Assembly (NCBI GenBank): GCA_013388515.1 | Contig: JACAFC010000177.1 | Location: forward strand, 1-32,214 | Length of the DNA: 32,214 nt | Direction of reading: 5' to 3' | Origin: Ignavibacteriaceae bacterium | GTDB taxonomy: Bacteria; Bacteroidota; Ignavibacteria; Ignavibacteriales; Ignavibacteriaceae | Shown here: positions 9,716-30,146 of the stretch, in pieces | Position numbering within the stretch: position 1 is the stretch's first letter | Layout: every line of letters begins with the position of its first letter | The notes under the pieces: generated by a model | Databases searched by the model: none | The model's input: the letters and a program-made list of their open reading frames with translations, nothing else | Told to the model about the DNA's origin: nothing | Program-made: the position numbers and the translations under genes

Positions 9716-11077
9716 ATGAATAGTTTATCAATTCTCATAGTCGATGATGACAACACTTATTTAACACTTTTAAAAAGTATTTTGGTGGACGAAGGGTATA
9801 CCAATATACTAACTCTAAGTAATCCTCATCAGGTTATCCAAACTATTCAAGATAAAAAAATTGATTTGGTGTTGTTAGATGTCCATATGCCTAATATGGA
9901 TGGATTGGAAGTGCTTGACAATATTAAACATCAAAATCCTCATATACCAGTTATAATGGTAACTGCAGCAAATGATGTAGATATTGCTCTAAAAGCTATA
10001 AAACTAGGGGCATATGAATTTATATTAAAACCTGTTGACTCAACACGTCTTTTTTTAACTATTGAACGTGCTTTAGAAAATAAAATATTGAATCAAGAAT
10101 TAGATTCGCTTCGGAGACCAACCGCCTCACAGCGCAAAAGACAACTTAGTTTCGAAGATATTATTACCAACGCACCTCAAATGCATAAGGTGTTCGACCT
10201 AATTGAAATTTATGCTCCAACTAATGAAACTGTTCTGATTACAGGTGAAACCGGCACAGGCAAAGACTTGGTAGCAAAAAAAATTCATGACCTATCATCT
10301 AGAAAAGACAAGGCATATGTCGTAGTTAATTTAGCATCAATAACTCCGAACTTATTTGAAAGCGAGCTGTTTGGTCATGAAAAAGGTTCTTTCACCGGCG
10401 CAACTAGCGAACGAATTGGATATTTTGAAACAGCAAATGGCGGAACAATTTTTCTGGATGAGATTGGCTAATTACCCAAAGAATTACAAGGAAAACTTTT
10501 AAGAGCAATTCAATATAACGAGATTTACAGAATAGGCAGCTCAAAACCAATTAAGCTTGATATAAGGATTATTACAGCAACAAATAAAGATCTTCTTGAA
10601 GCTGTAAATAAAAAAGAATTTAGAGCAGATTTGTACTACCGGTTAAACCGCGGGTATATCCACTTACCTCCTCTTCGCTCCAGAGGTGAAGATATTATTT
10701 TATTGGCAAATCACTTTCTGAAAGTCGGGCAAAAAATATACAACAAATCAATTCCGGGTTTTTCAAAGGAGATTGCTAAACGCTTAAAGAATTATGAATT
10801 CCCCGGAAATATTAGAGAGCTTGAGAACATAATTCTGCATACGGTAGCTCAAAGTACAAATGACAAGCCAATAACAGAAATGATTCTACCGGGCAGCAGC
10901 ATGAACAATAATCTTCATAATTCAAATGGCGAGGATTTCCCAACGATTGAAGAATTAGTGCAAACCCATATCATTCGCGCAATTCAACAATCAAAAGGAA
11001 ACACACAAAAAGCAGCTTACATTTTAGGTATCAGCGAAAGAACTTTACAACGAAGATTAAAAAAACTACGTAATTGA
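9716..11077 (+). pseudogene. NtrC-family sigma-54 response regulator, interrupted by one stop codon
   Basis: A 454-codon frame encodes three domains. The receiver has D10-D12, phospho-acceptor D55, T83 and K105. The sigma-54 AAA+ domain has Walker A GETGTGKD (177-184), the sigma-54-contact loop GSFTGA (224-229) and Walker B IFLDE. A Fis-type helix-turn-helix lies at the end (GNTQKAAYILGISERTLQRR). Codon 252 (10469-10471) is TAA where homologues have Glu or Asp after DEIG. The frame stays open on both sides and the second half (LPKELQGKLLRAIQ onward, RSRGED) is well conserved. A single G-to-T change from GAA explains it. As read, the product lacks half the ATPase and the DNA-binding domain. 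No histidine kinase is nearby. A recent null allele or a base-call error are the likeliest explanations. Confidence 0.85.
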
Positions 11078-11480: not shown

Positions 11481-12005
11481 ATGAGTACAGGCCATACCAT
11501 GCTATCTGTTGGGGCAATGTTGTTACTGTCAATTACAATATTAGGAATTAATGGGAAATTCTTGAATACAAGCACAGTATTATATAACACAAAATTCGGA
11601 GTACTTGCTGTATCACTTGGCACATCAATCATTGAGGAAGCAAACGGAAAAGCATTCGATCTTGCTGGATCTGAAGATGCGATAGTGGACCTTAGTCAAT
11701 TAACTGGTCCTAGCAGTTTAGGTCCCGCCTCTGGCGAATATTATCCGAATTTTAATGACTTTGATGATTACAACTGGCTGCATAAAGTAGATTCGATTAA
11801 AATAAATTCCCAAACCTTTGCTGTTTTCACAATAGACTGCAGGGTTAATTATGTTTCAGAATCAAATCCTTCAAACATATCAAGTTTACGTACTTGGCAT
11901 AAACGATTAGATGTTAGTGTAACGAGTCCGTCGATGAAAAATGCAGATAATAAACAAGATACTGTGAAGTTATCGTCTGTTTACAGCTATTGGCATTTTA
12001 GGTAG
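11481..12005 (+). CDS. Pilin-like membrane-anchored protein, first gene of trio
   Basis: I do not recognise a named family. The 174-residue protein starts with a hydrophobic helix (about residues 7-25) followed by a helical-looking stretch rich in small residues (about 26-57). A soluble, strand-rich C-terminal part contains FAVFTIDCRVNYV. The outline is that of a minor pilin or pseudopilin. However, the leader lacks the K/R-G-F-[S/T]-L-x-E prepilin-peptidase site, and only one Cys is present in the soluble part. It heads a tight operon: the next gene starts 12 bp after its stop. AAGGA lies nine bases before the ATG. A role in an envelope filament or secretion complex is inference from topology and neighbours. 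Confidence 0.6.
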   Translation: MSTGHTMLSVGAMLLLSITILGINGKFLNTSTVLYNTKFGVLAVSLGTSIIEEANGKAFDLAGSEDAIVDLSQLTGPSSLGPASGEYYPNFNDFDDYNWLHKVDSIKINSQTFAVFTIDCRVNYVSESNPSNISSLRTWHKRLDVSVTSPSMKNADNKQDTVKLSSVYSYWHFR

Positions 12006-12017
12006 GAAGGGATAAAG

Positions 12018-12629
12018 ATGGGTTTTAGTGATATTATTGATTTGGCGGGTTCTTTTTTAATTGGAGGATTGATTCTGCTTATTCTATTCAGAATGAATGG
12101 TGCAGCAGTAGAAAATGTTTACAACAATGGCGGAGAGCTGAGCTTGCAGCAAAATCTTTCAGTAACTGCAAAAGTGTTAGAAGACGATTTTAGAAAAATA
12201 GGTTACTGTTTGGATTGGAAAAAAATTCCCGATCCATCAAAGTCTATCCTTATGGCAGATTCCAATAGAATAAGATTCTTAACTGATGTGGATAATGGTT
12301 CGGGTCCCGACGGTGAAGTTGATACTCTTCTTTATGCCTTAGGTCCAACTTCTGAACTGGCAGTTACTCCTAATCCTAGAGATAGATTTCTTTATAGAAT
12401 TATTAACAACGAAACACCTCGAGGCGTAAATCTTGGTGTTACTCAATTCAAACTTATTTACTTTGATGCTTTGGGCGACACAATCAATTACCCCATAGCT
12501 GTCCCGAGCGAAATTTATACTATTGAAATAAATCTTACAGTTGAAAATACAGCTGGTTATAATGAACAGTACTCATCTGCATTTTGGAGACAGATACGAT
12601 TAGTGGCAAGAAATCTTAGAAATAGATAA
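12018..12629 (+). CDS. PilW/GspJ-like pseudopilin, second gene of trio
   Basis: This 203-residue protein has an N-terminal hydrophobic helix (about 8-26) followed by a long helix containing LSVTAKVLEDDFRKIGY. It then has IRFLTDVDNGSGPDGEVDTLLYAL, a FKLIYFDALGD segment and a C-terminal strand ending in the basic FWRQIRLVARNLRN. This order resembles minor pilins of the PilW/PulJ type. As in its neighbours, no cleavable prepilin leader is visible; an acidic D follows the short N-terminus (MGFSDIIDLAG). AGGAAGG about seven bases upstream supports the ATG. It lies 12 bp from genes on both sides, consistent with co-translation. The family call is moderate. Confidence 0.6.
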   Translation: MGFSDIIDLAGSFLIGGLILLILFRMNGAAVENVYNNGGELSLQQNLSVTAKVLEDDFRKIGYCLDWKKIPDPSKSILMADSNRIRFLTDVDNGSGPDGEVDTLLYALGPTSELAVTPNPRDRFLYRIINNETPRGVNLGVTQFKLIYFDALGDTINYPIAVPSEIYTIEINLTVENTAGYNEQYSSAFWRQIRLVARNLRNR

Positions 12630-12641
12630 GGATTAAATGAT

Positions 12642-13856
12642 ATGGCAGGTAAAGCAGCTTTGTTTTTAGTTGTTGGTTTCAGTTTGATATTCTTAGCTAT
12701 AGGAAAAAACTTTGGAGGCTTATCCACAAGAGCAGTAGATAATCTTTCAGATTACTACACTGAAACAGTAGCTCACGATATTGCCGTAACAGGAGCCAAC
12801 ATGGCTGCAAACAGAATCTTTAAAGATCCCACTTGGACTGCAGGCTATGACAAGGTTAGTTATCAAAACGGCAAAATGAATGTTGAAATTGATGTAATTG
12901 ATGCATTTAAAAATATCAGGCAAATTGTATCAACCGGAAGTTTTAACGGCTTAACTAATACTGTCACCGTAACTTTGCAGCCAAGCAAGTTTTCAAAGTT
13001 TGCATATTATTCAATTAACGAGGGAAGTTCCATTTACTGGATAACAAGTGACACTGTGTGGGGTCCTTTTCATACACAAGATTATTTACGCGTAAGCGGC
13101 AATCCATGCTTTTGGGGAAAAGCTACAACAAAAAGAAATGTTGTTAAAAATCCGAGCAGCAGTAAGCCGCGATTTTTTGGCGGCTTTGAAAAAGGAGTTG
13201 ATCTCCCTCTTCCAACAGATGGCTTAACACCAATTGAAAATGCTGCTGATGCTGGAGGGCATAAATTCACGGGCCAAGATACTGTGTATCTCACTTTTGT
13301 ATCCGATAGTATTAAAATAAAATATTCTTACAGCGGTGCTGTTTCAACTGTGCTGGCAGCAGACTTTGCGCCAAACGGAGTAATTTTTGCTAAGGATGCC
13401 GTTGTAAGATTAAAAGGAACAGTTAAAGGACAATATTCCGTTGCTGCTTCTGGTACTTCTCCTAAGGGGAGAATATATTTAGATGATAACATTGTTTATG
13501 AAACAGATCCCAGAGTTGATCCAACAAGTGAAGACATACTCGGCATTATTGCAAAAAATGAAATTTATGTAACTGACAATGCAGCAAATAATAGCAGTAT
13601 TGATATTCATGGATCTATTTACAGCGAATCTAAAGGATTTGGAGCAGAGAACTACAGCACAAGACCAGTTAGCGGAAGCATAAACTTATTGGGAGGTATT
13701 GTTCAGAATACCAGGCAGGCAGTTGGTACATTCAGCGGCTCAACAATTAATCATGGATTTGCAAAAAGATACCGATATGATGATAGATTAATGTTTAGCT
13801 CACCGCCAATGTATCCAGGAACCGGCGCATTTGAAATTGTATCATGGTTAGAATAA
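12642..13856 (+). CDS. PilX/DUF4900-like membrane-anchored protein, third gene of trio
   Basis: This 404-residue protein has a hydrophobic helix (about 4-21) and then a helical stretch ending near ANMAANRIFKD. The large extracytoplasmic part contains FAYYSINEGSSIYWITSDTVWGPFHTQDYLRVSGNPCFWGKAT, a block I associate with DUF4900/PilX-like proteins of Chlorobi and Bacteroidota. The C-terminal half is repetitive in beta-strand pattern (VIFAKDAVVRLKGTVKGQYSVAAS, later IDIHGSIYSES). It is the largest protein of the trio and may be the tip or sorting component. Only one Cys appears in the large domain. AAGGA upstream supports the start. A 16-bp AT-only palindrome overlaps the stop codon. Confidence 0.65.
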   Translation: MAGKAALFLVVGFSLIFLAIGKNFGGLSTRAVDNLSDYYTETVAHDIAVTGANMAANRIFKDPTWTAGYDKVSYQNGKMNVEIDVIDAFKNIRQIVSTGSFNGLTNTVTVTLQPSKFSKFAYYSINEGSSIYWITSDTVWGPFHTQDYLRVSGNPCFWGKATTKRNVVKNPSSSKPRFFGGFEKGVDLPLPTDGLTPIENAADAGGHKFTGQDTVYLTFVSDSIKIKYSYSGAVSTVLAADFAPNGVIFAKDAVVRLKGTVKGQYSVAASGTSPKGRIYLDDNIVYETDPRVDPTSEDILGIIAKNEIYVTDNAANNSSIDIHGSIYSESKGFGAENYSTRPVSGSINLLGGIVQNTRQAVGTFSGSTINHGFAKRYRYDDRLMFSSPPMYPGTGAFEIVSWLE

Positions 13857-18492: not shown

Positions 18493-19986
18493 TTAATTTA
18501 AAATATCTTTAATTCTATTTAAGATGGTTTGAACAATTTTTCTCACATCATCAGACACATTCAGCAGCAAAACTAAACCGCCAAATAAAAACAGTACAAC
18601 CACACTGCGTAAAATCAGATCAACAATAAAATTTTGCATTGAACTAATTTGAGAGCTTACAAACAAAGTTAAAAAGAAAATTACCAATACTTTAATTGTG
18701 CCAATTGAAAAGGGCTGAATCTTCATAAATGAAAGTAAAAACAAAAATCTTATGGTATTGAAGAGAAAAATTGAAATGGCCGATGCAAATGCGGCACCTG
18801 TAATTCCATACTTAGGAATAAAAATCAAGTTTGTAATTACCGCTACAGCTGCCAAAAACAAATAGAATGCTAAATCAATTTTATAATATTTAGAAGTGCC
18901 CACAATTTCCTGGTTTACACCTGTTGCCATATCAAACAGCTTACTAAGACCAATGTAAAACACAACCCACTTTCCAGGTGAATAAATTTCTCCATTCGGT
19001 ATAAGTTTAAAGATATTATCAATGTTGCACCAAATCCCGAGAAAGAGTAATCCGCCGACAATTAATTGGTTAAGCGAGGTTTTTTGATACATTTCCTTTA
19101 GCTTTGATACGTCGCCGTCTTTATTGGCTTGGGAAACTATCGGAATTACTACTTGAGAAATTGACCGCTTAGGAATTTCAATAACAGCTGCTATAAAAAA
19201 AGCGATGGTGTATATACCTGCGCTGCCTAAACCGCTGTAAGCGCTGAGCATCAAGCTGTCGATGTTTGCAATAATTGTTGCACTTGCATTTCCCATAATT
19301 ATGAAACCAGCATACATCAGCATTTCTTTCAGGTGCGCACTTTTTAGAATTTGGAAGTTTGGTTTAAGGAAAAGAACCTTTTTTCGTTTTATGTAGAGAA
19401 TTAAAATCATCAAGCCGATTAAATAATAAATGATTATAGAATCAGCAAATGTTTCGAATGAAAATATGCTCGTTAAAACGGCAACAAGCCCAAGCGACAT
19501 GAAAAGCCGCATCAAAACTTCTCTTACTATTGTTGGAACAACAGGTTTTTGCTGAACAATGAGGTAACTTTCAAATATTGTGGTAAGCAAAACAATCAGT
19601 GTGAAAGGAAGGAAGTAATAAAAGTAATCAAGCAGAAGCGGCGAGTTTTTTGTATAAATGCTAAAGATTACATCTTTAAGAAGAAAAAAAACTATAACAA
19701 AGATTATATACCCAACCATTCCAACTGAAATAACGAAAGGCAGAATTCCATTGTGTTGTTTAGATTCGTCTTTGAAGTAAGGGAAAAATTTTGTTGGAAT
19801 GTTTCCAGCTCCAAGTGAGGCGAACGTAGCAAATAAAAAAGAAACACTTATGAGCAGCCGAGTTAAACCAATTTGTTCTTTAGATAAAACAAGGGGAAAC
19901 AAGAGTAAAGTATTCAAATAACCGACGACAAAACCCAGGTAGGTAATCCCTGTGGTTTTAATACTTTGACGAATAACTATTCCCAT
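18493..19986 (-). CDS. Wzx-type polysaccharide/oligosaccharide flippase
   Basis: This 497-residue protein is nearly all membrane helix (about 12-14 segments by eye). It has the MOP-superfamily pattern: a short charged start (MGIVIRQSIKTTGITYLGFVVGYLNTLLLFPLVLSKEQIGLTRL), paired helical repeats, a central TIIANIDSLMLSAYSGLGSAGIYTIAFFIA block, and a late GITGAAFASAIS. Such proteins flip lipid-linked glycan units across the inner membrane for O-antigen or capsule assembly. It is 60 bp downstream of the dehydratase gene on the same strand. Substrate specificity cannot be read from sequence. The short C-terminal tail is basic. Confidence 0.85.
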   Translation of the reverse strand: MGIVIRQSIKTTGITYLGFVVGYLNTLLLFPLVLSKEQIGLTRLLISVSFLFATFASLGAGNIPTKFFPYFKDESKQHNGILPFVISVGMVGYIIFVIVFFLLKDVIFSIYTKNSPLLLDYFYYFLPFTLIVLLTTIFESYLIVQQKPVVPTIVREVLMRLFMSLGLVAVLTSIFSFETFADSIIIYYLIGLMILILYIKRKKVLFLKPNFQILKSAHLKEMLMYAGFIIMGNASATIIANIDSLMLSAYSGLGSAGIYTIAFFIAAVIEIPKRSISQVVIPIVSQANKDGDVSKLKEMYQKTSLNQLIVGGLLFLGIWCNIDNIFKLIPNGEIYSPGKWVVFYIGLSKLFDMATGVNQEIVGTSKYYKIDLAFYLFLAAVAVITNLIFIPKYGITGAAFASAISIFLFNTIRFLFLLSFMKIQPFSIGTIKVLVIFFLTLFVSSQISSMQNFIVDLILRSVVVLFLFGGLVLLLNVSDDVRKIVQTILNRIKDILN

Positions 19987-20046
19987 TAAAAATCTCTGTT
20001 AAAGTTAGTACATAGCAGAAAGATTTTTAAATAATTGAAGTAAGGA

Positions 20047-21015
20047 TTAATTCGTCATCTCCTTTAACTGGTTATCAATCATCATTTGAATAACATCATC
20101 AACATGATATTTTGCTTTCCATTTCAAAACTTGTTCAGCTTTTAATGGATCACCAAGACTTTCATAAATATCGGATGGGCGAAGCAGTGAGTTATCTATG
20201 CTTGTATAATTTTTATAATCCAAATTAAAGAAAGCAAATGCTTTTTGAACAAATTGTTCTAAGGATAGGTTGGTACCAGTGGCTATCACAAAATCATCTG
20301 GTTTTTCATTCTGAAGAATTAGGTACATTGCTTCAACAAATTCGGGTGCCCATCCCCAATCACGTTTAATAGAAACATTTCCCAGCGTAAGTTTTTCCTT
20401 TTTGCCTTTAGCAATATTGCATGCAGCTTCAACAATCTTTTTTGTAACAAATCTTTTAGGACGCAATGGAGACTCATGGTTAAAAAGAATTCCTGAACAC
20501 GCAAATAAATTATATGCTTCACGGTAATTTGCAAGCTGCCAGTGTGCAGTAGATTTTGCAACTGCATAAGGGCTTCGCGGTTTAAAGGGAGTTTCTTCAT
20601 TTGCGGCTTTACCTCCTGTGTCACCAAAACATTCACTTGATGATGCATTGTAAAACTTGGTGGGTAATTTGTGAAAACGTAGAACTTCAAGAATATTCAA
20701 AGTTCCAATACTTATACTTTCTAAAGTTTCTACCGGCTGAAGGAATGAAAGTCCTACAGATGATTGACCAGCAAGGTTATAAATTTCATCGGGCATTATT
20801 TGCAATATTGTTTGCATCACACTTCTAAAATCAATTAAAGACATTGAGTGCAGCTTAACTTTATCATAAATACCAAGTTTCTTCAAACCAGAAAAGGTTG
20901 ATAAATCCGCATCGCGTGATGTTCCATAAACTTCGTAATTTTTGCTAAGCAAAAGTTGGGCTAAGTATGATCCATCTTGACCCGATATGCCAATGACTAA
21001 AGCTTTTTTCTTCAT
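20047..21015 (-). CDS. gmd: GDP-mannose 4,6-dehydratase-type SDR
   Basis: This 322-residue extended short-chain dehydrogenase starts with an NAD(P)-binding GISGQDGSYLAQLL (9-22), the form typical of Gmd. The catalytic set is S126/S127-E128 (ASSSECFG, where most Gmd proteins have TSE) plus Y150-x3-K154 (SPYAVAKS). NHESPLRPKRFVTKKI and KRDWGWAPEFVEAMYLILQ also match Gmd. The reaction makes GDP-4-keto-6-deoxymannose, the precursor of fucose, rhamnose, perosamine and related sugars. It is somewhat shorter than E. coli Gmd. No fcl/wcaG or rmd partner is in the window, so the final sugar is unknown. The Ser replacing Thr and the short length leave some room for a related 4,6-dehydratase. Confidence 0.8.
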   Translation of the reverse strand: MKKKALVIGISGQDGSYLAQLLLSKNYEVYGTSRDADLSTFSGLKKLGIYDKVKLHSMSLIDFRSVMQTILQIMPDEIYNLAGQSSVGLSFLQPVETLESISIGTLNILEVLRFHKLPTKFYNASSSECFGDTGGKAANEETPFKPRSPYAVAKSTAHWQLANYREAYNLFACSGILFNHESPLRPKRFVTKKIVEAACNIAKGKKEKLTLGNVSIKRDWGWAPEFVEAMYLILQNEKPDDFVIATGTNLSLEQFVQKAFAFFNLDYKNYTSIDNSLLRPSDIYESLGDPLKAEQVLKWKAKYHVDDVIQMMIDNQLKEMTN

Positions 21016-21126
21016 ATCCTTAAATTAAAATTATTATCTGACTTAAAAATATCTATATTTATTTATATTTCACCCACTTAATTTCTTACGAACAACGAAG
21101 GATTACAGGTAAGGTACTGCCCATAC

Positions 21127-22935
21127 ATGAAAGCATTAAGATATAAAGTTCTGTTTTTAGCTAGCTGGTACCCAAGCCGTGTTAATAAAGTGCTCGGAAT
21201 TTTTGTAAAAAGAAAAGCCGAAGCCATGACCAAACTCTGCAGCGTTGCACTCATTTATGTTGTAGATGATAATTCACTTAAAGATAAAACATACGAATTA
21301 GAAACTTCGACCGAAAATAATGTTTTTACTGTAAGAGTTTATTTTAAAAAATCATCGAACAAAACAGCTAACCTCATTTTATATAACATCAGATACCTGA
21401 AATCATACTTCCTGGCTTGGAAGAAAGTAAAAGCTTGCTGGGGAAAACCAGATTTAATTCATGCTAATGTAATTGACCGCTGCGGATATATTGCTTTGCT
21501 CTTTAAATTCTTTAAAGGTATCAACTATGTTATTACTGAACATTCAACACCAGATATAGATTTTTTACGAGGAATTACAAATACAACCAAAATACCTTTA
21601 AAATTTTTAAAGAAGATCACCATTAAAAAATGTTCTTTCTTGAATGTTGATTCTCAACCTTCGTTAGAGTACCTAAGGAAAGCTGGATTTGATGGCAGCC
21701 TTGGCGTAATTCCAAACATTGTTGAACTTGATGAAAAGTATTTGAATCTAAATCAATTTACAAAGCCAAAAGAAAAAAAATCAGCAATTCACATTTCAAT
21801 CTTGAATAAAAGAAAAAATGTGGCGGATATTATTAGAGCATTTGCCTTTATTTATAATGATTTGAAAAGAAGAGACTTCGAATTCAATATAATTGGTGAG
21901 GGGAGTGAAAAAGAAAGCTTAATTTCACTCGCCGATGAATTGGGCATTCTTAATAATTGCGTTTTCTTTCATGGCTTGGTCTCTGAAGATAGAAAACTAG
22001 AACTTCTCACAAAATCTGATTTTCACATTCTAAACAGTGATGATGAAGGATTCTCCGTAGTAACTGCAGAGGCAATCCTTTATGGAATTCCAGTAATTGC
22101 AACAAAGTGCGGCGGTCCAGAGGATTTTGTAAATGAAACAACTGGAATTCTGATCGAAAGAAGTAATATTGAGGAGTTGAAGAATGCAATTCTATTTATG
22201 CTGGAAAATTCATGGAAGTATGATAAAACTAAACTTCATGAATTTGGCAAAAGAATGTTCAGCCCGCAGGTAATAAGCGCTAAAACTTATGATGCCTACA
22301 ATAAATCAATTGAAAATTGGAAAGCCGGCAACACAGCAAAAACGGTAAAGATAAAACCTAATTGGAAAGTACTAGATGTTGGAAGCGGTCATCAGCCGCA
22401 CAGAAGAGCAAATGTTATATTGGATAAATTTGTGGAGGATACAATTCATCGTACAACACAAAAGGTAGAAATGCCTGACGACAAATATTTTGTTTTGGGA
22501 GATGCTTTAGAAACACCTTTTACAGAAAAAGAATTTGATTTTGTGATTGCTTCTCATGTTGCCGAGCATATTGATGACCCAGTAAAATTTTGCAACGAAC
22601 TCCAGCGAATAAGCAGGCAAGGCTACATCGAAACTCCTGGTCCGCTCACAGAGCTGCTGCTGCCGGCTAATTCTCACAAATGGATTGTGAGGAAAAGTAG
22701 GAATGGATTGGTTTTTAAGAACAATAATAGAACTAAACCTTTTTCGGCTTTTTTCTATTCTTTGTTTTATTTAAACCGTGATGGTTATGATTTTAGAACC
22801 ATGAAATCTAAGAGCAAACTATTAAAGCTGGCTTCGTGGTTTTTGAATACTATTTGGAAATTTATTCCTTATACCTATGCCCGTTTAATTTGGGAAGATA
22901 ACTTTGACTGCAAAATGAATAAAGTTAAAAAATAA
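21127..22935 (+). CDS. GT4 glycosyltransferase fused to a SAM methyltransferase
   Basis: This 602-residue protein has two enzymes in one chain. Residues about 7-385 are a GT-B/GT4 glycosyltransferase: FLASWYPSRVNKVLGIFVKRKAEA at the start, ITEHS, IPNIVE, IIGEGSEKESL, and the EX7E pair E307/E315 in DEGFSVVTAEA. Residues about 405-602 are a class I methyltransferase: VLDVGSGHQPHRRA (415-428), LGDALETPF, and HVAEHIDDPVKFCNELQRIS. A short linker joins them with no stop or frameshift. The fusion suggests sugar transfer followed by methylation of the same growing glycan. It diverges from gmd and converges on the YfhO gene, 14 bp away. The ATG at 21127 is the first Met. Confidence 0.9.
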   Translation: MKALRYKVLFLASWYPSRVNKVLGIFVKRKAEAMTKLCSVALIYVVDDNSLKDKTYELETSTENNVFTVRVYFKKSSNKTANLILYNIRYLKSYFLAWKKVKACWGKPDLIHANVIDRCGYIALLFKFFKGINYVITEHSTPDIDFLRGITNTTKIPLKFLKKITIKKCSFLNVDSQPSLEYLRKAGFDGSLGVIPNIVELDEKYLNLNQFTKPKEKKSAIHISILNKRKNVADIIRAFAFIYNDLKRRDFEFNIIGEGSEKESLISLADELGILNNCVFFHGLVSEDRKLELLTKSDFHILNSDDEGFSVVTAEAILYGIPVIATKCGGPEDFVNETTGILIERSNIEELKNAILFMLENSWKYDKTKLHEFGKRMFSPQVISAKTYDAYNKSIENWKAGNTAKTVKIKPNWKVLDVGSGHQPHRRANVILDKFVEDTIHRTTQKVEMPDDKYFVLGDALETPFTEKEFDFVIASHVAEHIDDPVKFCNELQRISRQGYIETPGPLTELLLPANSHKWIVRKSRNGLVFKNNNRTKPFSAFFYSLFYLNRDGYDFRTMKSKSKLLKLASWFLNTIWKFIPYTYARLIWEDNFDCKMNKVKK

Positions 22936-22949
22936 TTTTTATCTCCTGC

Positions 22950-25526
22950 TTACGCCGTTTGGACTTTCCTTTTTCTTTCAACAAAAATTCCCGCCGCAAT
23001 CCCTATCAACGAAATTGAACTAAGCAAAAACACAACATACTTGCTCACATAAAAACTTTTTGGTGCAAAAACGAATTCAACCGTATGCTTACCTTTAGGA
23101 ACAATAATTCCCATGAACCCATGATTGGTTTGGTAAATCTTAGTTTCATTCCCATCAATAAGGGCTTTCCAACCGGTAGGAATCTTAAATAATTTATAAT
23201 CTGCCTCCCCGCTAAAGAACGTACTTCCAAAAAACATAAAATTGTTCCCCGAAGCATTCACATCTAACTTAAGATTTTCATCTGTATATTTAAGAATCTT
23301 TGAATAAGCAGTAGAATCCGGTTTTTCCACAACTAGTTTTTCATTTACGAAAGCAACTTCTTTAGGATCAAATAAATTCGCTTTTATTAGGTTCAAAGCT
23401 TCAAAATTACTTTTTTGCTCTACTCTGTCTATAAAATAAGCACGCGGAAGTGCATTTAAATTTTTGTTCACAAATGTCTTTTCTCCAGAATACACTGTAC
23501 TAAATTCTTCACTTTGAATTGGTTGCTCAGATACAACATACTTAACTCCAAGCATCTTCCATAAAGTTGGGTTTGCCGGACCAACAACCTCAATAATATC
23601 TTGGTATGTTCTTGGTTTTATTCCAGAATAGCCGTAAAAATCTTCTAGTAAGAAATAAGCATTAAAATTTGAATTCTGAGCGAATGAACCTAGTGAACGA
23701 TCTTGCTTAAGATTCAAAATACGGAACGGTTCTTTATCATTTTGGCTTTTAATTGCTTTTACATATTCAGGAGTTTCAAACTGATTTTTAATTTCCGGAT
23801 TATCATGGTACTTTGCACCGCGAGCATCTATTCTCCACAAATCAATTAAGGTAAGAATAATTATTACCAGAACAACTGCATCTGCACTTAATTTCCTATT
23901 TACAAAAAATACTCCAGACCAGAACACAACTGTAAGCATTCCAAATGCAAGTATGAAATCATTGGTGAACATTTTCGCCATATACTCTGCAAATGCCTGA
24001 AAATATTGTGCATACTGCGGATTACTGGTTTGAAGAGAAGCTGCATGGTCATTTACTCTTCCTGTAAACCAGCTTGAAAGCGCACTGTTGCCAATTAAGG
24101 ATAAAACAAAAATTCCCGCAAAGATATATGCTGAATATTTCAGAACGGAGAATGCTTTTTTGTCTGTGTGTTCTCGTAAAGAGATAATTTTCATAATTCC
24201 GTAACCGGCAAGTACAGGTAAAGACATTTGCACAAGTACCAGAATCATGCTTGGAACTCGGAACTTATCAAAATATGGAAAGTAGTAGAACATCAAATCA
24301 AATAGCAGCGAGAGGTTTTTTCCAAATGAAATAAACAATGCGATTCCGGAAAGTATAGTTAAGAACTGAACGAAAGGTTCTTTCCAGCATGTAACAATTG
24401 CAAACAATGCTAAAAAGAAAACCAAAACACCCATATACATTGCAACATCTACAAAAGGCATTTGACCAAAGTAAGTATTCACCTCATACTCTTGATTTTG
24501 CGTGAGAGGACCCTTGTAAGTTGAATTTCCAAATCCATAAAATGATGGGATAATAAATGTCATTACTTCTTCGGGCGAAAAAGACCAGCTTGTATGATAA
24601 TCATAATATTGCGATTCGGACTGCTCAGCTTTACCTGTTGCTGTTTCGGTAATACTTTTTCCGCCTCTTGTAGAAAATGGTGTGTATTCGTAAATCTGTG
24701 TAAGGTTATCGGCAGAAATTAGAACAGCTAAAATTGAAGCTACAGCGAACACACCTGCTGATTTGATTAATCTTCCACTTATTTCCTTTTGCTTGTTTAT
24801 TAACGATCTTACAAAAAAGAAAGTGTAGTAAATAGCCACAGCAAAAAGTGTATAGAATATTATCTGAACATGAAACCCTTGAATGAATAATTGCAGAACT
24901 ATGATAAGTGTGAGAGCATATACAATCTTTATCTTTTCTTCAAACTTCAGCAAGATGAGGAAAATCAATGGATACATGCAAAGCGAAGTAAGCTTTGTAA
25001 CGTGACCAATGTAAAGAAATACAATTATGCCCGTACTGAAAGCGGTGGCAATTGCTGTGAACAAGCTCACCAAAGTATTTTTTGAAATATGCCGCATCAA
25101 AAGAAATGATGAGATACCAAGCATGATGAGGTAAAAACTCCACATAGCATAATCAACAGAAAACAAACTGCTGAATGCAGTTCGTATATAGCCAAATCCC
25201 ATATAAATTAAATTGAACCATGTTTTCTCTGTTCCAAGGGCATATGCCGGCATGCCGCAAAAAATGTGAGGATTCCAAAGCGAGAATCCTTCCCTATCTT
25301 TTAATATGTACGGTTTTGCACTTTCACTTGCTATTATATCACCCGATTGAAAGGTTTTACCTCCGAAATACAATGGATTAAGAAAAATCAAAAATAAAAT
25401 AAACATTACAAGTATCATTACAACCGCATGATATTTGGGAGGAAGAATCTCGTTGAAATTAAATTTTGCAAGAAATGACTGCTTCACTTCTTTTTGAGCT
25501 TTGGTTTCTTTTTTTGTTTTAGTCAT
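22950..25526 (-). CDS. YfhO family membrane protein
   Basis: This 858-residue protein has a basic N-terminus, then a first membrane helix (YHAVVMILVMFILFLIFLNPLYF) followed by a short loop with QSGDIIASESAKP. Roughly a dozen helices reach to about residue 590. A soluble extracytoplasmic domain follows, with EPFRILNLKQDRSLGSFAQNSNFNAYFLLEDFYGYSGIKP, and GWKALIDGNETKIYQTNHGFMGIIVPKGKHTVEFVFAPKSFYVSKY just before the last helix. This is the YfhO layout, linked in Firmicutes to glycosylation of lipoteichoic acid; in Bacteroidota the role is unproven. It ends a three-gene minus-strand run behind a GT2 and a methyltransferase, fitting a GT-C-like or glycan-modifying function. Confidence 0.88.
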   Translation of the reverse strand: MTKTKKETKAQKEVKQSFLAKFNFNEILPPKYHAVVMILVMFILFLIFLNPLYFGGKTFQSGDIIASESAKPYILKDREGFSLWNPHIFCGMPAYALGTEKTWFNLIYMGFGYIRTAFSSLFSVDYAMWSFYLIMLGISSFLLMRHISKNTLVSLFTAIATAFSTGIIVFLYIGHVTKLTSLCMYPLIFLILLKFEEKIKIVYALTLIIVLQLFIQGFHVQIIFYTLFAVAIYYTFFFVRSLINKQKEISGRLIKSAGVFAVASILAVLISADNLTQIYEYTPFSTRGGKSITETATGKAEQSESQYYDYHTSWSFSPEEVMTFIIPSFYGFGNSTYKGPLTQNQEYEVNTYFGQMPFVDVAMYMGVLVFFLALFAIVTCWKEPFVQFLTILSGIALFISFGKNLSLLFDLMFYYFPYFDKFRVPSMILVLVQMSLPVLAGYGIMKIISLREHTDKKAFSVLKYSAYIFAGIFVLSLIGNSALSSWFTGRVNDHAASLQTSNPQYAQYFQAFAEYMAKMFTNDFILAFGMLTVVFWSGVFFVNRKLSADAVVLVIIILTLIDLWRIDARGAKYHDNPEIKNQFETPEYVKAIKSQNDKEPFRILNLKQDRSLGSFAQNSNFNAYFLLEDFYGYSGIKPRTYQDIIEVVGPANPTLWKMLGVKYVVSEQPIQSEEFSTVYSGEKTFVNKNLNALPRAYFIDRVEQKSNFEALNLIKANLFDPKEVAFVNEKLVVEKPDSTAYSKILKYTDENLKLDVNASGNNFMFFGSTFFSGEADYKLFKIPTGWKALIDGNETKIYQTNHGFMGIIVPKGKHTVEFVFAPKSFYVSKYVVFLLSSISLIGIAAGIFVERKRKVQTA

Positions 25527-25549
25527 TTTTATTCAACTAGTTTTGAAAA

Positions 25550-26359
25550 TTATTTTTGTGCTATAAAATTTATTCCACTGCCAATTTTATTTTTTTGATT
25601 GAAATCCAACATCATCATCAAATAAGTTATGGGAAAAGTAAGCAAATAATAAAACGGGAGAACAATAAAAAACATTTTAGAAATATTTAAAAACTGCATA
25701 GGATATTTTATTCCCAACCGCCAAGCTTTATCGCCCCAAAACCCATAAGTGTACTGCGATTTATAAGTATTGAATCCTAAAGGATGTAATTTACTTTCCA
25801 ATTCTTCTTTCGAGTAACCAATACGAGCATGTTCTCCAATAAAACTTTCATCATCATCTGAATGAACATCGCTTCCTCCAAAAATGGAAGGAGAATTTAT
25901 TAGTAAAAATCCACTTGGTTTTAATGCGCGGTAAAAATTTTGAAATACCTTCGCATCATCCGCAATATGTTCCATAACATCTACACAAAGAATCAAATCA
26001 AATTTGTCTGCGTGCTCTATCTGAAGCAAATCTTCTGCCTCAAACTGAATATTGCTGGCTTTTATTTTCGCGAAAAAATCTTTTGCATCTTTAATCCAGT
26101 CGCTTTTTACATCAACAGAAAGAATTCTTGCCGGCTGCATATTTTTATTCATAAAAAATGAATATTGACCAAAGCCTGTTCCAGCATCATAAATCTCTAT
26201 ATTTTTTTCGCTAAATATTTTTCTCAGACTTTTTAGTTCTCGTCTAACATACCACGATCTTAAGAAAAATAAATCAAGAAGCTGGTAGAAAATTATCCGA
26301 AGAACAGGAAACTTTTTTATTACAGATGCAAAAACATTTTTTACTGGATCGTAATGCAT
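25550..26359 (-). CDS. Class I SAM-dependent methyltransferase, membrane-associated
   Basis: This 269-residue protein shows SAM motif I IYDAGTGFGQYSFFM, acidic end ILSVDVKSDWI, motif II DKFDLILCVDVMEHIADDAKVFQNFYRALKPSGFLLINSP, and a later HARIGYSKEELESKLHPLGF, which is common in sugar and quinone methyltransferases. A C-terminal hydrophobic span (MFFIVLPFYYLLTFPITYLMMML) probably anchors it to the inner membrane. It sits between the GT2 gene (78 bp) and the YfhO gene (23 bp) on the same strand, so co-transcription is likely. The acceptor is unknown. Confidence 0.85.
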   Translation of the reverse strand: MHYDPVKNVFASVIKKFPVLRIIFYQLLDLFFLRSWYVRRELKSLRKIFSEKNIEIYDAGTGFGQYSFFMNKNMQPARILSVDVKSDWIKDAKDFFAKIKASNIQFEAEDLLQIEHADKFDLILCVDVMEHIADDAKVFQNFYRALKPSGFLLINSPSIFGGSDVHSDDDESFIGEHARIGYSKEELESKLHPLGFNTYKSQYTYGFWGDKAWRLGIKYPMQFLNISKMFFIVLPFYYLLTFPITYLMMMLDFNQKNKIGSGINFIAQK

Positions 26360-26437
26360 TATGAAAGTGTTTTTATTGTAAGATAATGTCGAAAAACAAA
26401 ATTGTTGAAGTTTAAGCAGATTGGAGTTATCGCCCTG

Positions 26438-27547
26438 TTAACCTTTTTCCTTAATAACATATTCAGCTTCGTTTCTAGAATTATTTACAAGCATCTCACC
26501 CAGCAAACCAACTGAAAAGAATTGCACACCAACAATAATCAACAAAATACCAAGAAAAAGCATTGGGCGGTTACTTAAGTATTTGTCTTGAATTGCCCAA
26601 AGGTAAACCAAATATCCGTTTACAACCATACCAATTATAAATGAAAGCATTCCAAGAAAACCAAAAAAATGCATAGGTCTTCGAATATACCGTGTAGTGA
26701 ACATTACGGTAAGAAGATCGATAAACCCCTTAAAGAAGCGCGATATCCCAAATTTCGTTTTGCCGTACTTTCTTGGATGATGTTGAACAATGGTTTCCGA
26801 TATTCGGTAACCTTGCCACTTGGCTAAAACTGGAATGTAACGATGAAGCTCACCATAAATTTTTAAATTTTCGGTTACTTCTTTTCGGTAGGCTTTAAGC
26901 CCGCAATTAAAATCATGAATTTTTATTCCGCTTAGTATTCTAGTTACAAGATTAAAAAACTTGGACGAAAACTTTTTAATAAAAGGATCGTATCTTTTTT
27001 TCTTCCATCCAGAAACAATATCAAATCCCTCTTCCAGCTTCTTGAGAAGATTACTAATTTCCGACGGATCATCTTGAAGATCAGCATCCATTGTAACAAC
27101 TACATCTCCGGTTGCTTCCTTAAAACCCACTTGCAAAGCAGCCGATTTACCGTAATTTTTTTGAAAACTTATATACTTAAATCTTTTATCTGTTCTGCAG
27201 ATTTCTTTGATTACCTTTAGAGATGTATCCGAACTGCCGTCGTCAACAAATATGATTTCATAAGAAATTTCAATCGATTTTAGAGCTTTTCTTAATTCAT
27301 TCGTTAAAGGATTTAACGATTCCTCTTCGTTGTAAAGCGGGATAATCACTGATAATTTCTTGAACGCACTTTTCTCTTTTTGAACTGCTTCTCTATTAAA
27401 TTTTTGATAATACCGCCTGCGGTGATAAAATGGTTTTCTAAACTGAGATTTTCCTGATGACGATTTGTCTCCCTGTTTCGCTTGATTATTGCCGTCTTGA
27501 CCTTCACTTGGTGAAGGATTTGGCGCATGACTTATATTTTCTTCCAA
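26438..27547 (-). CDS. GT2 glycosyltransferase (DPM1/ArnC-like) with disordered N-terminal extension
   Basis: This 369-residue protein carries a GT-A domain from about residue 64: LSVIIPLYNEEESL, VDDGSSD (101-107), the metal-binding DAD (154-156) with LQDDP, and a HHPRKYGKTKFG block. Two membrane helices follow (about 292-315 and 330-353). This is the polyprenyl-phosphate mannosyl/glucosyl transferase layout, which charges undecaprenyl phosphate with a sugar at the inner membrane. Residues 1-63 are unusual: an acidic, Gly/Ser/Gln-rich segment and then a very basic stretch (FRKPFYHRRRYYQKFNRE). It leads the GT2-methyltransferase-YfhO run and could supply the lipid-linked sugar. The first ATG is used; a later start would drop the tail, but none near the GT-A domain looks better. 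Confidence 0.88.
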   Translation of the reverse strand: MEENISHAPNPSPSEGQDGNNQAKQGDKSSSGKSQFRKPFYHRRRYYQKFNREAVQKEKSAFKKLSVIIPLYNEEESLNPLTNELRKALKSIEISYEIIFVDDGSSDTSLKVIKEICRTDKRFKYISFQKNYGKSAALQVGFKEATGDVVVTMDADLQDDPSEISNLLKKLEEGFDIVSGWKKKRYDPFIKKFSSKFFNLVTRILSGIKIHDFNCGLKAYRKEVTENLKIYGELHRYIPVLAKWQGYRISETIVQHHPRKYGKTKFGISRFFKGFIDLLTVMFTTRYIRRPMHFFGFLGMLSFIIGMVVNGYLVYLWAIQDKYLSNRPMLFLGILLIIVGVQFFSVGLLGEMLVNNSRNEAEYVIKEKG

Positions 27548-27671
27548 TTATTTATCCATTCCTTAAAATTTCAGCGAAAATTAGTTGAATATCGCCATAA
27601 AAACAATTTGCAACCAACTTTTCTTGCCATTTACCTTTCTAAGAAAAAAAACAAGCTTTGGAACTTTAATC

Positions 27672-27702
27672 TTGACTAATTTGTATAGATTACATAGGTT
27701 TG
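27672..27702 (+). promoter_or_regulatory. Candidate suf operon promoter, Bacteroidota -33/-7 type
   Basis: TTG (27672-27674) and TAGGTTTG (27695-27702) are separated by 20 bases. The second box matches TAnnTTTG exactly. Initiation would fall around 27707-27712, leaving a leader of about 55-60 bases before sufB. No clear IscR-like palindrome was recognised around it. Confidence 0.45.
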
Positions 27703-27766
27703 AACTGAGTTTTAGTTTTCTTTTAACGAAACCATAAAAATTGGAATAATCACAATCAGGATAAAG

Positions 27767-29215
27767 ATGAGCGTTACCGAAACCTCAAAAATTGAAGAAT
27801 TAGCAAATAAAGAATACAAATACGGATTTGTAACTGATATTGAAACTGAAAGTCTTCCCAAAGGACTAAATGAGGAGATTATCTCCCAGCTCTCAGCAAT
27901 TAAAAAAGAGCCACCTTTTATGCTTGAGTGGCGCTTGAAAGCATACAAACATTGGCTTACTATGAAAGAACCGCATTGGCCGAATGTAAAATACGATCCA
28001 ATTAATTATCAAGATATCAGCTATTATTCTGCACCTAAAAAGAAACCACAGCTTAACAGCTTAGATGAAGTTGATCCTGAATTAGTTAGAACTTTTGAAA
28101 AACTTGGAATATCATTAGAAGAACAAAAGCGATTATCCGGCGTTGCAGTTGATGCGGTGTTTGACAGCGTGTCAGTCGCAACTACTTTTAAAGAAAAACT
28201 ATCAGAACTTGGAATAATTTTTTGCTCGATGTCCGAAGCAATTCGGAATCATCCAGATTTGATTCAAAAATATCTTGGCAGTGTGGTTCCTTATACCGAT
28301 AATTTTTTTGCATCATTAAACTCTGCTGTGTTCAGCGATGGATCATTCGTTTATGTTCCTAAGGGTGTTCGCTGTCCAATGGAACTTTCGACTTACTTTA
28401 GAATAAATGCAGCAAATACAGGACAATTTGAACGTACTTTAATTGTTGCCGATGAAGGAGCTTACGTAAGTTATCTTGAAGGATGTACTGCTCCGATGAG
28501 AGATGAAAATCAACTTCATGCTGCCGTGGTTGAACTTGTTGCTTTAGATAATGCCGAAATAAAATATTCAACAATACAAAATTGGTATGCAGGCGATAAA
28601 GAAGGCAAAGGCGGCATTTACAACTTTGTAACCAAGCGCGGTGCTTGCCGTGGTGTGAATTCAAAAATATCGTGGACTCAAGTCGAAACCGGTTCAGCAA
28701 TTACATGGAAATACCCGAGCTGCATTTTACAAGGTGATAATTCCATAGGAGAATTTTATTCTGTTGCCTTAACAAATCACCGCCAGCAGGCAGATACCGG
28801 AACAAAGATGATTCATCTTGGCAAGAACACTCGCAGTACAATTATTTCAAAAGGAATTTCGGCAGGATTCAGCAATAATAGTTATCGCGGTTTGGTTAAG
28901 ATTGTCAAGAAAGCTGATAATGCTCGTAACTTTTCACAATGCGATTCTCTTCTTCTTGGAGATAAATGCGGCGCTCATACTTTTCCTTACTTAGAAATTA
29001 ATAATCCCTCAGCACAAATTGAGCATGAGGCAACAACATCTAAAATTGGTGAAGATCAAATCTTCTATTTGAATTCAAGAGGAATAGCAACCGAAGATGC
29101 AATAAATCTTATTGTTAATGGATATTGTAAAGAGGTGTTCAAAGAGCTGCCGATGGAGTTTGCGGTAGAAGCAACAAAATTATTAAGTGTTAGTCTTGAA
29201 GGAAGTGTAGGATAA
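27767..29215 (+). CDS. sufB: Fe-S cluster assembly scaffold SufB
   Basis: This 482-residue protein is a full-length SufB, scaffold subunit of the SufBC2D complex that builds Fe-S clusters in the cytosol. Visible features include [49 protein letters not shown] and [14 protein letters not shown]. By alignment, C392 (QCDS) corresponds to the essential E. coli C405, and E419-H420-E421 to E432-H433-E434. The N-terminal region (about 1-110) is the longer form common outside Enterobacteria. AGGATAAAG just before ATG supports the start. It is first in the operon, behind the candidate promoter at 27672-27702. Confidence 0.97.
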
Positions 29216-29245
29216 ATGCTTTGCTACGTTTTATCAACTTGCGCA

Positions 29246-29344
29246 ATGTCATGTTGAGCCTGCCTGTCGGCAGACAGGCTTGTCGAAACATGCCGAAGAC
29301 TGAAATTGAATCAAAGTCACACTTCGACGGGCTCAGTGTGACAT
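29246..29344. repeat. TGTCAT-type interspersed repeat between sufB and sufC
   Basis: The ends are inverted repeats, ATGTCATGTTGAGCC and, in reverse complement, ATGTCACACTGAGCCC. Inside is a stem GCCTGTC-GGCA-GACAGGC. The 99-bp unit lies within the 163-bp gap between two genes of one operon and so would be transcribed. It is homologous to 18303-18392. Confidence 0.75.
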
Positions 29345-29378
29345 GAGAATAAAGTATTATAGATAAAAAGGAAATAAA

Positions 29379-30146
29379 ATGTTATTAGAAATAAAAAATT
29401 TACATGCAAATATTGAAGGCAAGGAGATTCTCAAAGGAATCAATTTGAAAGTAAATATTGGTGAAGTTCATGCTATAATGGGTCCGAACGGCTCGGGCAA
29501 AAGCACTCTTGCTCAGGTTCTTGCCGGAAGAGAAGAATATGAAGTAACCAAGGGTGAAATAATATATAACGAAAAAAATCTTCTAGAACTTTCGCCCGAA
29601 GACAGAGCAAGAGAAGGAGTGTTTCTTGCATTTCAGTATCCAGTTGAAATTCCTGGCGTGAGTAATACCAACTTGCTTAAAACAGCACTGAATGAAATTA
29701 GAAAATATCAAGGTCAGCCGGAACTTGATGCAATGGAATTTTTATCATTAATAAAATCCAAAATGAAACTTGTTGAGCTGGATCAAACATTGGTTAGCAG
29801 ATCGGTAAATGAAGGATTCTCCGGAGGAGAAAAAAAACGTAATGAAATATTCCAAATGGCAGTACTGGAACCAAAGCTTGCGGTACTTGATGAAACTGAT
29901 TCGGGGCTTGATATTGATGCACTTAGAATTGTTGCCAATGGTGTGAATAAATTAAAATCTGAAAAAAATGCGATTGTAGTAGTAACCCATTACCAAAGAT
30001 TACTGAATTATATCGTGCCCGATTTTGTACATGTTCTTTACAAAGGAAAGATTGTTCGTTCAGGAGATAAGAGCCTTGCTCTTGAACTTGAAGAGAAAGG
30101 TTATGATTGGATAAAAGCCCCCTCAGATTCTGTTGAGGTAGCATAA
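29379..30146 (+). CDS. sufC: Fe-S assembly ATPase SufC
   Basis: This 255-residue ABC-type ATPase powers the SufBCD complex. It shows Walker A GPNGSGKST (35-43), the Q-loop FQYP (85-88), an ABC signature in the SufC form FSGGEKKRNE (147-156), Walker B LAVLDETDSGLD (167-178) and the switch His in VVTHYQRLL. It has no membrane segment; SufC binds SufB and SufD rather than a transporter. AAGGAAATAAA directly before ATG is a good ribosome-binding site, useful because a 163-bp repeat-filled gap separates it from sufB. Confidence 0.97.
   Translation: MLLEIKNLHANIEGKEILKGINLKVNIGEVHAIMGPNGSGKSTLAQVLAGREEYEVTKGEIIYNEKNLLELSPEDRAREGVFLAFQYPVEIPGVSNTNLLKTALNEIRKYQGQPELDAMEFLSLIKSKMKLVELDQTLVSRSVNEGFSGGEKKRNEIFQMAVLEPKLAVLDETDSGLDIDALRIVANGVNKLKSEKNAIVVVTHYQRLLNYIVPDFVHVLYKGKIVRSGDKSLALELEEKGYDWIKAPSDSVEVA

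Follow-up and report, generated by a model that had tools for sequence, protein, structure and literature searches.

Searches for type IV filaments rely on two marks, the class III leader of the subunits and the prepilin peptidase. Both belong to the conserved set given in a review of these filaments, where the Nanoarchaeota alone are noted as lacking a detectable peptidase (PMC4471445), and MSH loci, which have no peptidase of their own, live alongside that of another system (PMC6668835). The "T2SS" (type II secretion system) of Cytophaga hutchinsonii (Bacteroidetes), from the same broad phylum as the DNA considered here, has divergent pseudopilins and branches with the type IVa pilus (PMC6668835), though its cluster contains the Peptidase_A24 gene CHU_3197 (PMC5553014). 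In Melioribacter roseus pilT, pilQ, pilB and pilC were reported as present and pilA and pilD as "not found", and the set was read as incomplete (PMC3534657). We analysed three adjacent genes, here called A, B and C, in a stretch of 32,214 nucleotides (the window) from an Ignavibacteriaceae bacterium (GCA_013388515.1, contig JACAFC010000177.1, forward strand). We regard it as rather likely that they encode, in an order like that of GspI, GspJ and GspK, the three minor (tip) pilins of a type IV pilus-like machine without class III leaders, and, with slightly more reserve, we think it probable that the Ignavibacteria and other classes of the phylum share a lineage-wide type IV pilus system whose major and minor pilins are leaderless and undergo no proteolytic maturation. 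We draw this from the fact that the genes begin where mature pilins begin, from the linkage of the trio, by co-occurrence and operon position, to PilB, PilC, PilT, PilM/N, a PilO-like protein and a secretin, from a major pilin that is likewise leaderless, and from the failure to find the peptidase or canonical prepilins in most of these genomes.

All three genes lie on the plus strand with 12 bases between A and B and again between B and C. Gene A (11481 to 12005; 174 residues, beginning MSTGHTMLSVGAMLLLS...; 50 homologues) is a putative leaderless minor pilin at the GspI/PilV position, gene B (12018 to 12629; 203 residues, MGFSDIIDLAGSFLIGG...; 50 homologues) a GspJ/PilW-like one, and gene C (12642 to 13856; 404 residues, MAGKAALFLVVGFSLIFLAIG...; 53 homologues) one at the GspK/PilX position. 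The genes are real and under purifying selection, since the proportion of nonsynonymous differences from a genome of the same genus (0.13, 0.10 and 0.10 for A, B and C) is well below that of synonymous differences (0.70, 0.65 and 0.75) and relatives of the gene C protein occur widely, in 94 of 116 genomes from this order. A preliminary description of the window had proposed three adjacent pilin-like genes with such gaps and single-helix anchors, and the coordinates, the hydrophobic segments and the models of A and B all agree with it.

The N-termini are conserved from the first methionine onwards, reading MNTGQxxLTxGAxxLLS or MNTGQxLLTIGAxxLLS in an alignment of 50 A proteins, MGFSTLIDILGSxIIGG in 50 B proteins and MxGKAxLxLVLGFS in 53 C proteins, and the hydrophobic segment begins at a median residue of 3–6 across the families (6 in A, about 3 in C). 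No alternative start lies five or more codons upstream in 48/50 A, 47/50 B and 50/53 C genes, nor in 35 of the 36 leaderless major pilins described below. In the window the first in-frame stop is found 13 codons upstream of A, the open codons containing no start, and 4 codons upstream of both B and C, while for the pilins of the same genome it is 1 codon upstream. Across the families such stops limit the open stretch before the start to a median of about 4 codons, and the open frames of the leaderless pilins are some 126–142 codons long for proteins of about 127 residues. Because the N-termini are conserved from the first residue and in-frame stops lie a few codons upstream, no leader fits, and the annotated start codons, judged by these alignments, are right. 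The K/R-G-F-x-x-x-E processing site is absent from A, B and C, as had been remarked before, no class III leader turned up in any of their homologues, and the Pfam family N_methyl has no match anywhere in the window's genome. The earlier suggestion that these are uncleaved pseudopilins thus gains support; with no leader possible, the subunits are probably not cleaved.

The accompanying machinery is encoded elsewhere, in operons that occur across the order and begin with leaderless major pilins (MGQQQLLL...), followed by pilC, pilB, pilT, a fused pilM/N, a gene resembling pilO and one for a short secretin. The closest relative, which is also the genome used above for substitution rates (G001), has a full operon of this kind (locus L072) with three MGQQQ pilins. 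It encodes a PilC (T2SSF, 3.4e-28), an assembly ATPase of the PilB/GspE family (T2SSE, 6.1e-104), a second, PilT-like ATPase (T2SSE, 1.4e-33), a PilO-like protein with a weak match (0.033), a 415-residue secretin (Secretin, 5.9e-25, with a second value of 1.3e-24), and a response regulator with a sensor-like protein. The family of a further 515-residue protein matches PilN of the Myxococcus type IV pilus structure (3jc8, 1.7e-7), and, going by position and length, it probably contains PilM as well. A PilB orthologue (E<=1e-150) is present in 100 of 116 relatives, including the window's genome, where leaderless pilins, pilC and pilB lie on another contig (C246). The preliminary statement that no pilus ATPase, peptidase or secretin gene is nearby holds for the window, in which no pilus gene appears among the Pfam-scanned open reading frames, but not for the genome. 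MGQQQ pilin genes are also seen on contigs labelled as other phyla (a Calditrichaeota bin, L193; a Deltaproteobacteria bin, L196; a Clostridium bin, L164), reflecting either transfer or binning errors.

In 40 relatives' loci the homologues of A, B and C lie together in that order, often as two tandem trios and in varied neighbourhoods, and in some of them they adjoin machinery genes. In L022, L023 and L035 the neighbours of the trio are small proteins beginning MGQQQLLLIVLG..., a PilC and a PilB. In L117, L120, L121 and L123 the arrangement is pilin(s)-PilC-PilB-A-B-C-PilT-PilM-PilN, so that the trio sits between pilB and pilT (one unrelated gene separating A from B in L123), and L113, L114, L115 and L119 have variants of this order. 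Such in-operon trios come from genomes farther removed within the class, in other orders, and from other classes. A similar picture emerges across the phylum: of 296 genomes sampled, 102 match the pilin profile and 88 the gene B profile; 87 have both, one has B only and 15 the pilin only. These genomes share ancestry, so a Fisher test on the counts overstates their independence, and the link between trio and machine is better supported by the recurrence of the operon order. It had been proposed to look for conserved trios and their linkage to type IV pilus genes, and the in-operon trios and the 87 co-occurrences among 296 genomes bear that linkage out.

The prepilin peptidase is rare in these bacteria. 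Peptidase_A24 was detected in 12 of 14 control genomes and in 6 of 116 relatives, being absent from the other 110, and phylum-wide 91 of the 102 genomes with the leaderless pilin are without it. Four of the six positive loci were read (in G075, G089, G046 and G076), and in each the peptidase lies in a separate second operon of canonical type, whose prepilins, where their genes are covered, are of the GFSLTELMVALVIIG-, GFTLIELMV- and GYTLIETLVSI-types. Among 59 relatives N_methyl is matched only in G075 and G089, which both have such an operon. Six closed, single-contig genomes that carry the pilin (G002, G008, G020, G027, G090 and G092) gave no A24 match above the cut-off, even with E values up to 10 allowed, and the machinery operons that were read contain nothing resembling a peptidase gene. 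Weak partial hits to the N-terminal A24 domain PF06750 occur in some genomes (in G092, 1.4e-4 over 50 residues in a frame with a stop); lacking the catalytic domain, they were set aside as presumably unrelated CxxC-rich proteins.

Structure predictions with AlphaFold2 fit this picture for A and B. The model of A (mean predicted local distance difference test score, pLDDT, 88.6) has a helix at residues 3–55 (11487 to 11645, its first half transmembrane, as the hydrophobic window across homologues also indicates) followed by four strands, the textbook pilin layout. That of B (pLDDT 84.6) has a continuous helix at residues 3–59 (12024 to 12194) and then a beta-rich domain, and its top PDB hit with Foldseek is 5bw0_C, a chain of the complex between the minor pseudopilins XcpV and XcpW (probability 0.99, E 3.7e-3, template modelling score by target 0.46), in agreement with the earlier likening of the second gene to PilW/GspJ; XcpW we take to be GspJ. 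Both models thus have the layout of the pilin fold, with a match to a pseudopilin in the PDB for B only, and the outcome named earlier as damaging, folds unrelated to pilins, was not seen for B. For the third gene the DUF4900 part of the earlier label is supported. PF16241 (DUF4900) is matched by 41 of 53 members of the gene C family (best 6.8e-9), the window protein itself being sub-threshold (E 0.017; residues 108–163, 12963 to 13130), and the likeness to PilX/GspK has a probability of 3.4% in an hhalign comparison with canonical K proteins; C has no significant match to known minor pilins.

Several observations weigh against our interpretation. An hhalign comparison of the trio and the major pilin with the canonical pilins present in this order gave no convincing homology, and neither B nor the major pilin has a significant sequence match to solved pilins. 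Gene A has no Pfam match and its model, despite the pilin layout, no significant fold match in the PDB, so that its GspI/PilV label rests on its place in the trio. Mature pilins almost always have Glu5, yet it is not seen in A, in C or in the major pilin; B is the only one of the trio to keep an acidic residue at positions 4–8 (49/50). The window's own genome has two copies of the trio, both detached. The one in the window is not adjacent to the machinery, whose operon is cut by the end of C246 inside pilB. Finally, both the putative filament and its presumably unprocessed N-termini are deduced from sequence.

If the subunits were matured after all, it would be by an unrelated or very divergent peptidase removing a minimal leader, as in MG|FSTLID, MG|QQQLL or MNTG|QMLL; a divergent peptidase had already been raised in the preliminary description. 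An early glycine before the hydrophobic stretch does recur, MG opening 42/50 B, 32/53 C and 36/36 pilin sequences, which recalls the glycine found at position -1 in class III leaders (PMC4471445), and the first seven residues of the 36 pilins are invariant. Yet a leader of 1–4 residues is below any reported length (6–26 residues; PMC4471445), the glycine is missing from distant A and B proteins, Met aminopeptidase alone could process MG-, MA- and MS- starts, and, with the A24 families absent and the machinery operons free of peptidase-like genes, the data do not require such an enzyme and offer no candidate for it; we consider it unlikely. Were a standard peptidase instead present but missed, acting in trans, one would point to the fact that most relatives are metagenome drafts and that some known systems borrow a peptidase, as MSH does (PMC6668835). 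This is very improbable, given that the six single-contig genomes with the pilin show no A24 match above the cut-off and that the subunits have no leader to cut; for closed genomes it is already refuted, unless the peptidase is an unrelated one.

That true leaders lie upstream of wrongly chosen starts is scarcely credible: the 13 open codons before gene A in the window are what invites the idea, but they are without a start, and the stops just upstream of B, C and the pilins, together with the dearth of earlier starts in all four families, rule out hidden leaders. We also give little credence to the trio being a membrane-anchored envelope complex that merely resembles pseudopilins and works outside any filament machine. 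Stand-alone trios are scattered, the window is without pilus genes and sequence homology to known pilins is not significant, but the trio lies between pilB and pilT in several classes, occurs together with the leaderless pilin, and includes the GspJ fold of B. The stand-alone complex implied earlier is not supported, relatives having the trio inside or beside a complete pilB/pilC/pilT/pilQ operon with a leaderless major pilin.

As putative tip pilins of a leaderless machine, the three proteins can be set beside the known systems. The type IVa pilus (PilB, PilC, PilT, PilMNOP and PilQ, with FimU/PilV/PilW/PilX) shares the assembly ATPase, the platform, the PilT-like ATPase, PilM/N, a PilO-like protein and the secretin, as well as a small one-helix major pilin and, in several lineages, a set of minor pilins in one operon. 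In the leaderless system, by contrast, every subunit is without a leader, the class III motif and the prepilin peptidase are absent, and Glu5 is missing from A, from C and from the major pilin; PilM and PilN are fused, and the minor pilins are often detached and duplicated. With the GspI-GspJ-GspK tip complex of the T2SS the trio shares the order, the largest protein last, and the match of the B model to XcpW, whereas it is leaderless and has no detectable profile similarity to canonical I, J and K. The canonical operon of type II secretion or type IV pilus type found in the same bacterial order is rare (L087, L088, L089 and L090, in the four Ignavibacteriales genomes read); belonging to the same class of machine, it encodes a secretin with an N0 domain, GspE/F, GspG-, I-, J- and K-like prepilins with leaders (GFSLTELMVALVIIG, GFTLIELMV, GYTLIETLVSI) and an A24 peptidase, and it co-exists with the leaderless system and does not replace it. 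The pil genes of Melioribacter roseus very probably belong to the same leaderless system, its pilins having gone unrecognised (PMC3534657). In the open-access literature, with subscription journals outside the search, we found no description of a leaderless pilin or of the MGQQQLL motif.

Directly upstream of the trio (9716 to 11077) lies a gene for an NtrC-family response regulator with receiver, sigma54 AAA+ and Fis helix-turn-helix domains. Read through, its 454 codons are 58–60% identical to intact orthologues beside the trios in L045, L050, L052 and L053; a single in-frame TAA at codon 252 (about 10469 to 10471) is either a nonsense mutation or an assembly error. Sigma54-like -24/-12 sites, such as TTGCACGATTTTTGCG and TAGCACAATTCTTGCA, are seen 30–55 bp 5' of gene A in many relatives (for example L060, L050, L029, L027 and L038), with 18 of 50 upstream regions reaching a shuffle p<=0.05, though the window itself shows no convincing one. 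The sites and the NtrC-type neighbour suggest a PilR-like control of the trio. The second trio of the same genome (G000:C262, about 27616 to 29952; L041:7617-9953) is followed by an MscS-like mechanosensitive channel gene, a pairing that recurs in L043 and L048, and the trios of L030 and L059 have two tandem copies of gene C (430 and 463, and 425 and 468 residues), as if the tip protein were diversifying. Farther along the window (18496 to 27547), glycosyltransferases, methyltransferases, a polysaccharide flippase and a YfhO-like membrane protein are suggestive of a surface polysaccharide locus.

The leaderless system probably works like a type IV pilus machine, even though the two features that define the family were looked for and not found. 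Each subunit would be inserted by the signal recognition particle and Sec with its N-terminus in the cytoplasm and its C-terminus outside. It would serve as a signal anchor that is never cleaved, although the initiator methionine may be removed if residue 2 is small. The tip complex formed by A, B and C would prime the polymerisation of MGQQQ pilins by PilB and PilC and head the filament on its way out through PilQ, and PilT would retract the filament. The trios scattered and often duplicated over the order may be interchangeable tips, perhaps for adhesion, and the product may be a long pilus, a short secretion pseudopilus or both.

If true, this would be a type IV filament that dispenses with the class III signal peptide and the prepilin peptidase by which the superfamily is defined, and it would explain the report of pilBCTQ without pilA or pilD in Melioribacter roseus. 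It would also make testable why pilins normally carry a leader, whether they need Glu5 and a free or methylated N-terminus, and whether assembly works from signal-anchored subunits.
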